Below, one piece after another: positions 32,688 to 36,247 of a stretch of DNA of 64,000 bases. How positions within the stretch are numbered: the stretch's first letter is position 1; every line of letters begins with the position of its first letter. Position numbers and translations under genes: made by a program. This DNA is from Lentibacillus jeotgali. GTDB taxonomy: Bacteria; Bacillota; Bacilli; Bacillales; Amphibacillaceae. The notes under the pieces are model-generated. The model saw nothing but the letters and a program-made list of their open reading frames with translations, searched no databases and had not been told where the DNA came from. The stretch spans positions 62,001 to 126,000 of the forward strand of contig NZ_AGAV01000019.1 of NCBI RefSeq assembly GCF_000224785.1, given 5' to 3'.

Positions 32688-32840
32688 AAAAAAACCTCTT
32701 CCGGATAAGAAGAGGGTAAACAAGTACCTGATGCTTCTTATCTAAAAAGCTTGACGCTTACTGGAATTGGCACAGTACTTTTGAAGTCTGTTGCCGAGGC
32801 TTCACAGGGCCAGTCCCTCCACCTCTCTGGATAAGAAAAA
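32688..32840 (-). promoter_or_regulatory. SAM riboswitch (S-box) with terminator
   Basis: Read on the minus strand the leader begins CTTATCCAGAGAGGTGGAGG, then GACTGGCCC, TGAAGCCTCGGCAACAG and the further S-box helices. The 3' end forms a terminator (CCTCTTC...GAAGAGG, then TTTTTTT). SAM binding would stop transcription before metI. A promoter candidate on the same strand is TTGACA (32899-32894), 17 bp, TAAATT. Confidence 0.93.
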
Positions 32841-33001: not shown

Positions 33002-33492
33002 GTGGTACCCCTGGGCGTTGTGACAGTAGGCTTTGACGGCACCCTGTATCAGGGCAATTCATTTAAAGTGATGTTTCAAGCAGCAAATAAATCATTTGGC
33101 TGGAAACAGTGGAGCGTGGTTGGAACAGGTATTGTTAAAGCGGCAGCTGGAGGTCTGATTAAAGGCAAAAATGCGTTTCGCATGCGATTTTTTAAAGCTT
33201 TTGCGAAGTCGTTTAAGGGCATGACGCAAACCGAACTTAATGCGTTTTTTCAGAAACGTGTTGCGATGGGTACAAAGGATGCCCATTATGACTTGATTCA
33301 TAAATTCACGAGCATGAATGCCAGAAGGGGCTGGGCAATCTGACTGGAGACGAGACGGAGGAAACATGGGCATATGCCGACAGTAAAAGTGATGTCCCAT
33401 TGTTTCAGTTTGTCAAATATCCGATTGTCGTGAACCCGGATGAAGACATGAGAAAGATAGCTGCGAATGGAGGATGGGTGTTGTTTGGCTGA
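33002..33492 (+). pseudogene. HAD-family (SerB-like) hydrolase, decayed
   Basis: The first frame (33002-33343, 113 codons) resembles the N-terminus and cap of HAD-IB phosphatases: FDGTLYQGNSF, then TELNAFFQKRV. The first Asp of the DxD nucleophile motif is replaced (VGFDGTL). After a stop at 33341 a different frame gives the C-terminal part: TGDETEETWAYADSKSDVPL, then VKYPIVVNPDEDMRKIA up to TGA at 33490. The Rossmann middle with the motif II/III residues is deleted. The catalytic loss, deletion and frameshift together indicate a dead gene. Confidence 0.75.
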
Positions 33493-33702
33493 ATAAGATA
33501 CGGGCATAAAAGAGACGTTTGATGTTGGCGGATACTAGATGTTTACAGCCAGCAAAATTCTTGAAGAACTTGTTTAGGATCTGTGCACTCAAGTAATCTG
33601 GATTTATGGATTTTGTCTCTTTCAGTAAAGATTACTATTATTTATCTTACAGTTGATATAAATTGCGACACAAACCAGAAGTTAGCGAGAATCTCTAACG
33701 AC

Positions 33703-33821
33703 GCAGCTGGAATATACTCGCTTTCCGTGGGCTCACCACAAGCCTCCTCGCTCGCATAGAACGCTCGCTGTGGGGTCTCTTAGGCTCGCTGTCCCACAGG
33801 AGTCTCGCATATTCCAGCTGC
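33703..33821 (-). repeat. Intergenic inverted-repeat element, copy A
   Basis: The ends GCAGCTGGAATAT and ATATTCCAGCTGC are perfect inverted repeats. The interior, read on the minus strand, has GGAGACTCCTGTGGGA-like, GAGACCCCAC-like and CCCACGGAAAGCGAG blocks, which are shared with copy B. No coding capacity. Confidence 0.75.
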
Positions 33822-33901
33822 TTTTAAGCGTTAAGCAATCCAGTTTTATCTGTCATAAAATATTTTGTTTTACCAAGATATAGTGAACAAAACTTAGCGG
33901 A

Positions 33902-34007
33902 GGAAATACACGGAGACTCCTGTGGGAGCAGAGGCATAGGTGAGACCCCGCAGTGCGTCAGCACGCGGAGGCTCACCAGCCGCCCACGGAAAGCGAAGTG
34001 TATTTCC
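33902..34007 (+). repeat. Intergenic inverted-repeat element, copy B
   Basis: The ends GGAAATACAC and GTGTATTTCC are inverted repeats. The interior contains GGAGACTCCTGTGGGA, GTGAGACCCCGCAG, GGAGGCTCACC and CCCACGGAAAGCGAAG. It is opposite in orientation to copy A, 80 nt away. Elements of this look recur in Bacillaceae intergenic DNA, as far as I recall. Confidence 0.75.
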
Positions 34008-34160
34008 GAAGCGACGTTATTCCACTCAACCTTTACGTCGCAGTTTATGGATTTTATGTAAAAAAACAACAATTTTCTTAGGAAACAGCATAGATTTTTA
34101 TATGTAGAGTGTCATTTATTTGGGGAAGTGAATAATGGAGTTTTGAATAGGGGGCCGCTT

Positions 34161-36112: not shown

Positions 36113-36158
36113 AACTTTGCGTGAATTGGATAAAACTATATCCGTTCTTGAAGACGGT

Positions 36159-36247
36159 AGAGGTTCTTAGCTTTAACCCTCTATAAAAAACTAAGGACAG
36201 ATGATTACGAATTGTTAAACCATGTGCCTTAGGCCGTGGTTTTTTTA
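36159..36247 (+). promoter_or_regulatory. preQ1-I riboswitch with terminator
   Basis: The aptamer (36159-36196) has AGAGGTTCTTAGC, then CCCTCTATAAAAAACTAAGG, which is the class I preQ1 consensus. Its 3' CTAAGG can pair with CCTTAG inside the downstream terminator stem (ACCATGTGCCTTAGGCCGTG, 36220-36239, then TTTTTTT). Ligand binding would free the terminator and switch queF off. Confidence 0.93.

Follow-up and report, generated by a model that had tools for sequence, protein, structure and literature searches.

A probable 476-nt MITE with two divergent hairpin modules in Lentibacillus jeotgali

Bacterial MITEs include bcr1, RUP, and BOX, and hairpin repeats that occur in inverted pairs resemble REPINs. 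The first two of these MITEs are named in a published account (PMC3733652). For IS1272/TnSha1, partial deletion of the target hairpin with no target duplication is reported (PMC4923244), and Bhal-1 of B. halodurans is described as a 74-bp stem-loop repeat present in 36 copies (PMC2267715).

We analyzed a stretch of 64,000 nucleotides from Lentibacillus jeotgali, referred to as the window, and compared one of its intergenic features with these systems. The feature is likely a single old copy of a 476-nt MITE, of an ordinary kind built with an unusual part. This part, the module, is a conserved fold of about 105 nt that is common to MITEs and to insertion sequences with open transposase frames, and it is without an Rfam match here.

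Architecture and mobility of the window element

The whole non-autonomous element, the putative MITE, occupies 476 nt of the window (33615..34090, no strand assigned), its outer ends being placed at the best match to the ends shared by sister copies. The left outer end (33615..33638, plus strand) is a degenerate GGCTCTTTTCGTAAATATTGTTGC with mismatches at 8 of 24 positions, and the right outer end (34067..34090, minus strand) is a degenerate GGCTGTTTTCTAAAAGGTTGTTGT with 10 of 24. Inside them lie the inner inverted repeats ATAAATTGCGACACA (33658..33672, plus strand), one mismatch away from ATAAACTGCGACRYA, and ATAAACTGCGACGTA (34034..34048, minus strand), which has none. Module A, with arms beginning GCAGCTGGAATAT, lies at 33703..33821; its core reads on the minus strand and matches the model at 33708-33816 (E 7.6e-17). 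Module B, whose arms differ and begin GGAAATACAC, lies at 33902..34009; its core reads on the plus strand and matches the model at 33903-34006 (E 1.1e-27). Both E values come from the covariance-model search of the own genome, and A and B are among the 47 copies used to build that model.

The modules are divergent and separated by an AT-rich spacer (33822..33901, no strand assigned) in which no sigma-70-like promoter was matched. The only listed ORF of more than 60 aa within the element is a purely mechanical frame of 82 aa (33824-34072, minus strand) that crosses module B. Consistent with a MITE, the element is short, without coding capacity, and bounded by terminal inverted repeats common to its copies, degenerate in the window copy. 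The PF13751 transposase frame that marks the IS1182 family is absent from it.

A sequence-only reading had described A and B as two related elements in opposite orientation beside a dead HAD gene. Their positions, opposite orientation, and differing terminal arms are borne out, as are the shared internal blocks: two 15-nt blocks of A, 33718-33732 and 33792-33806, are 100% complementary to 33982-33996 and 33913-33927 in B, respectively, and the GAGACCCC block common to A and B pairs at 92% over 12 nt. Rather than being separate elements, A and B are two divergent modules of one element that ends at 33615 and 34090. Within the window, the CCCRCGGAAAGCGA block occurs 4 times when up to 2 mismatches are allowed, a number equalled by 0 of 100 shuffles, and the shorter GACTCCTGYGGGA block, taken by itself, does not reach significance (3 matches, with 15 of 100 shuffles as high). 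The relatedness of A and B is settled by matches across the genome rather than by these window counts.

The neighboring gene (33002..33492, plus strand) lies outside the element and is taken, in keeping with its first naming, to be of HAD type. It is disabled, as had been claimed: relative to its orthologue in G004 (L225), 190 nt are missing at about 33320-33324, and the parts flanking this internal deletion align with the orthologue at 76% and 81%. The further suggestion that the element gathered where a gene was lost found no link, the deletion lying about 290 nt from the element. The surroundings also contain a SAM riboswitch (32735-32837, minus strand) and a PreQ1 riboswitch (36154-36200, plus strand), both above their Rfam gathering scores.

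A search of the own genome with B returned 59 matches at E ≤ 10, many of them partial, and beside many of them a recurrent partner stood at a constant distance. The covariance model found 61 matches at E ≤ 0.1, 56 of them below 1e-9, so the genome holds far more than the two copies seen in the window. Strong modules lying at most 250 nt apart, start to start, formed 16 pairs, all 16 divergent, and 27 of 29 pairs less than 1 kb apart in named loci were divergent as well. In the own genome, inverted ATAAACTGCGACRYA repeats, mostly about 390 nt apart, enclose the pairs as units, and outside these repeats the units share further ends, GGCTCTTTTCGTAAATATTGTTGC on the left and GGCTGTTTTCTAAAAGGTTGTTGT on the right. 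Module types are combined within units, A with B and B with a third type, C, and there are also shortened units joined inside modules, which we read as deletion products rather than ancestors.

Ten contigs of the own genome (G000 C7, C8, C9, C10, C11, C14, C18, C19, C24, and C25) have parts of the element no more than about 160 nt from an end. The assembly was therefore probably interrupted by copies, and more of them may exist than were counted. With copies at several contig ends of its own genome, the element is relevant to annotation as well as assembly.

A sister frame, common in Neobacillus loci, places the module between GGCTGTGTTAAA ends, and 31 of 126 modules tested had both ends within 3 mismatches. 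Among these 31, an 8-bp duplication identical at 7 or 8 positions was present in 15, compared with a mean of 0.82 and a maximum of 5 in 5000 permutations. The window copy is flanked by the putative duplication TGGATTTT on the left (33607..33614, no strand assigned) and TAGATTTT on the right (34091..34098, no strand assigned), identical at 7 of 8 positions and situated in AT-rich DNA; for this frame, GGCTnTTTTC, taken as a set, the duplication signal was not significant. The 9 of 25 units that were kept gave a mean of 3.78 against 3.35, and 349 of 2000 permutations equalled or exceeded the observed value. Target duplication holds for the GGCTGTGTTAAA sister frame and is without a significant signal in the frame of the window copy. 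In a third frame, GGYYGGGACA ends enclose single modules (L012, L013, L014, and L017), and no duplication is obvious by eye.

Sites without the full element occur in relatives. At the window locus, G004 has an intact HAD gene followed by an epimerase gene and no element, with flanks too diverged for a base-exact empty site, and G006 has neither the HAD gene nor the element. In 400 kb of G002, the full element is absent at all four own-genome loci that could be mapped by both flanks, one of which retains a short arm-like fragment. Copy number, sister-frame duplications, and element-free sites together uphold the earlier guess of a non-autonomous mobile element, and we consider a mobile origin well supported.

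Fold, orientation, and distribution of the module

The module, about 105 nt long, forms a single long hairpin with four stems that fits 47 diverse copies (alignment A1). These copies were hand-picked from 68 non-redundant copies among 149, all gathered by exact sequence patterns, and the structure was drawn from the same sequences that were then scored. Pairing was found in 86.0% of A1 cells, compared with 35-43% when the partner was slid, and double changes occurred in 308 cells compared with 117 after shuffling, a value reached by 0 of 500 shuffles. The two covariation measures least inflated by relatedness were modest in A1: 21 pairs had double changes against 19.2 shuffled (28 of 500 shuffles as high), and there were 75 further pair types against 69.4 (16 of 500 as high).

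Alignment A4 contains 43 distinct copies that came from transposase searches or from 400 kb of G002 sampled blind to modules. They were detected by the model rather than by an exact pattern, and the alignment is fitted to that model. Here 89.0% of cells pair, and all five measures beat 500 of 500 shuffles, with 316 double-change cells against 104.5, 25 double-change pairs against 20.8, and 83 further pair types against 66.4. The stems therefore covary beyond chance, modestly on two measures in A1 and in a model-fitted alignment in A4, which supports the earlier guess of a structured RNA family. Since the 33 invariant columns of A1 are partly built in by pattern selection, we quote loop conservation from A4, in which conservation reaches 93-100% in the internal-loop columns GACT, 97% at the bulged T, and 100% in the AAAG facing it; most arm columns are only 31-56% conserved. 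The combination of matched stem changes with near-fixed loops and bulges argues that the fold itself is selected and is not merely a by-product of palindrome repair.

The balance of G-U over A-C mismatches bears on whether the fold is read as RNA. In A1, helices 2 and 4 contain 13 G-U and 2 A-C, helices 1 and 3 show no excess (29 and 35), and the whole alignment has 42 to 37. A4 has 53 G-U against 11 A-C overall, the larger G-U excess on A2, A3, and A4 coming from model-fitted alignments.

Several sequence variants of the module were noted. In seven loci from different species (L010, L024, L026, L029, L072, L074, and L132), the 3' block CCCGCGGAAAGCG is replaced by CCCTAAGGTG(C/T)GCG, and another variant, reading GCGAACCGCT, is present in L067, L073, L079, L085, and L108. 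Many module arms have a common inner ATACAC/GTGTAT, which suggests gradual paired change rather than insertion of the module into palindromes already in place.

Single modules are also oriented with respect to neighboring genes. From crude ORF calls on 105 single modules, minus 13 inside ORFs and 15 without a flanking call, a gene reads into the 5' side of the module in 56 of 77 cases and into the 3' side in 33 of 77. In tandem-gene settings, 38 modules lie in the sense direction and 15 in the opposite one (p = 0.002). This bias could alternatively come from insertion preference. Taken together, the orientation and G-U data lean, short of proof, toward a fold that is read as sense RNA.

A different explanation, which we regard as unlikely, is that the module is a purely parasitic DNA hairpin with no RNA function, whose paired changes arise from template switching as one arm is copied onto the other. 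Template switching does seem to occur: L243, a 389-nt unit, holds a near-perfect palindrome in which one arm has been replaced by the mirror image of the other, as this process predicts, and the shortened L233 and L234 have their junctions at repeats within modules. However, template switching would be expected to erase internal loops and mismatches, yet copies not chosen by their exact sequence retain them, and the preference for the sense orientation downstream of genes also argues against a function-free hairpin.

The module is widespread. The covariance model finds it in 27 of 30 genomes, the own genome included, with module counts taken up to 131, and it was matched in 115 of 150 sampled genomes of the order, many of which contain at least 26 copies each. 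A pattern scan of named genomes returned at least 120 stretches; among the 80 listed, almost all are from Bacillaceae and their relatives, and two records are labelled Arthrobacter and Pseudomonas. When five module loci and the Y1 locus were compared with Rfam at E ≤ 1, the sole match was a SAM riboswitch, with no family for the module, and a search of the whole window at gathering scores placed nothing over the element. A literature search that included the sequence blocks as text yielded no recognized description of the repeat among the best-ranked matches, Bhal-1 being compared by its description and not by its sequence.

Insertion sequences and the mobilizing transposase

Modules adjoin the transposase gene inside IS1182-family elements with open frames, on both sides in L376 and also in L373-L375; the loci inspected closely owe their selection in part to modules in them or in their relatives. 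In L376, the left end sits at a terminator and is followed in turn by an outward module, an open transposase frame of 451 codons, a second outward module, and a right end. In G258, 4 of 4 fetched copies (from 6 matches in the genome) have an upstream module of identical score, and such same-place, identical-scoring modules in four copies of one genome show that the module multiplies together with the insertion sequence. On plasmids pB and pA of Peribacillus sp. R9-11, a module is followed, about 100 nt downstream, by an annotated IS1182 transposase. Degraded transposase pieces lie between divergent modules in several Neobacillus-type loci, and four such peptides were tested: PF13751 was matched by two of them and PF05598 by one, with no match for the fourth. 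In unselected first looks, a module was present in 6 of 30 PF13751 loci and in 6 of 30 loci from the transposase-fragment search, with two places common to both sets. The modules of L317 fall outside the usual arrangement.

These associations raise the possibility, to which we give little credence, that IS1182-family elements possess the module as an integral end or regulatory part and that all of the MITEs are IS1182 deletion products. Divergent modules do flank transposase genes or their remnants in L376, L381, L386, and L394, and degraded PF13751-matching fragments lie between divergent modules in L131 and L150. However, open-frame IS1182 copies without a module exist (L325, L334, L339, and L354), the outer ends of the MITEs are unlike IS1182 ends, and comparison of L325 with L426 and L427 suggests, in our reading, that a module-bearing sequence inserted just after the terminator-like left end. 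At the genome level there is no association with PF13751: 66 of the 115 module-bearing genomes had a match to it, as did 24 of the 35 module-free ones (p = 0.32), which indicates that modules do not depend on PF13751 transposases today. Among IS1182-family copies located at intrinsic terminators, a complete terminator hairpin stands on both sides of L334, L372, L373, L374, L375, L376, L379, L388, and L426, and L427 is an exception with different hairpins on its two sides.

An autonomous element with the outer ends of the MITE was not found by a simple pattern among the loci collected here, nor was a partner found in 20 own-genome stretches at small contigs or contig ends, three of which are all N. 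ISL3 had no match in the own genome. In two relatives from the genus there are ISL3-type elements that end in GGCTATTCGC or GGTTCTCTGTC and are flanked by 8-bp duplications; these ends resemble the MITE ends in their first bases only.

Movement of a REPIN-like module by the genome's single Y1/RAYT-like transposase is highly improbable: the own genome has one Y1_Tnp match and the module is commoner where Y1_Tnp is present (99-104 of 125 genomes, against 11 of the 20 listed without it, five further genomes without Y1_Tnp being uncounted), but those 11 genomes carry 13 to at least 26 modules each, no module lies within 1.5 kb on either side of the own match (L061), and 8-bp duplications fit a DDE enzyme. 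The abundance of modules in Y1_Tnp-free genomes (11 of 20 listed) also led us to reject a RAYT/REPIN origin as a necessary one. The own Y1_Tnp match (L061, G000:C14:18001-18333) lies just downstream of a gene that is presumably Mg-chelatase/YifB-like.

Proposed role and comparison with known systems

In the reading that we prefer, one MITE unit would comprise a pair of inverted outer ends (GGCTnTTTTC...), the inner inverted repeats, and two outward hairpin modules of about 105 nt. Such units would be spread in trans by a DDE-type transposase, a candidate enzyme that we infer, duplicating 8 bp at AT-rich sites. The GGCTGTGTTAAA frame shows this duplication, and the window copy gives a hint of it. 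The module is a separate and widely shared part, which in some IS1182-family elements takes the same outward orientation beside the transposase gene and which these elements carry along when they multiply.

In its most likely role, to which we give a chance slightly short of even, the module would act at the RNA level on the sense strand, folding into a barrier or a 3' structure within transcripts that come from neighboring or transposase genes. Such a barrier would make insertions downstream of genes tolerable and would insulate the element. If the module does act as RNA, it would help to explain tolerated downstream insertions and would provide a handle on transposon-borne RNA structures. 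More tentatively, the module might represent an undescribed class of transposon-borne structured RNA, a folded 3' element taken up by several unrelated Bacillales mobile elements for insulation at the RNA level and among the most abundant conserved non-coding structures of the order; we think this broader proposal doubtful.

Compared with known systems, the units resemble REPIN/RAYT in their paired inverted hairpins and many copies, but differ in having a module without Y1 transposase dependence, 8-bp duplications, and a longer conserved fold. Like Bhal-1, the module is a stem-loop repeat from a related host group, a comparison made by description and not by sequence (PMC2267715). Some copies with the module share with IS1272/TnSha1 the PF13751 transposase family and insertion at terminator hairpins, whereas most copies that we read closely keep a whole hairpin on both sides, unlike what is reported for IS1272/TnSha1 (PMC4923244). 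The element resembles bacterial MITEs in being short and gene-less, with inverted ends, many intergenic copies, and, in the GGCTGTGTTAAA frame, target duplications. Unlike these, it is built with one or two conserved structured modules that are also found in another type of transposon.
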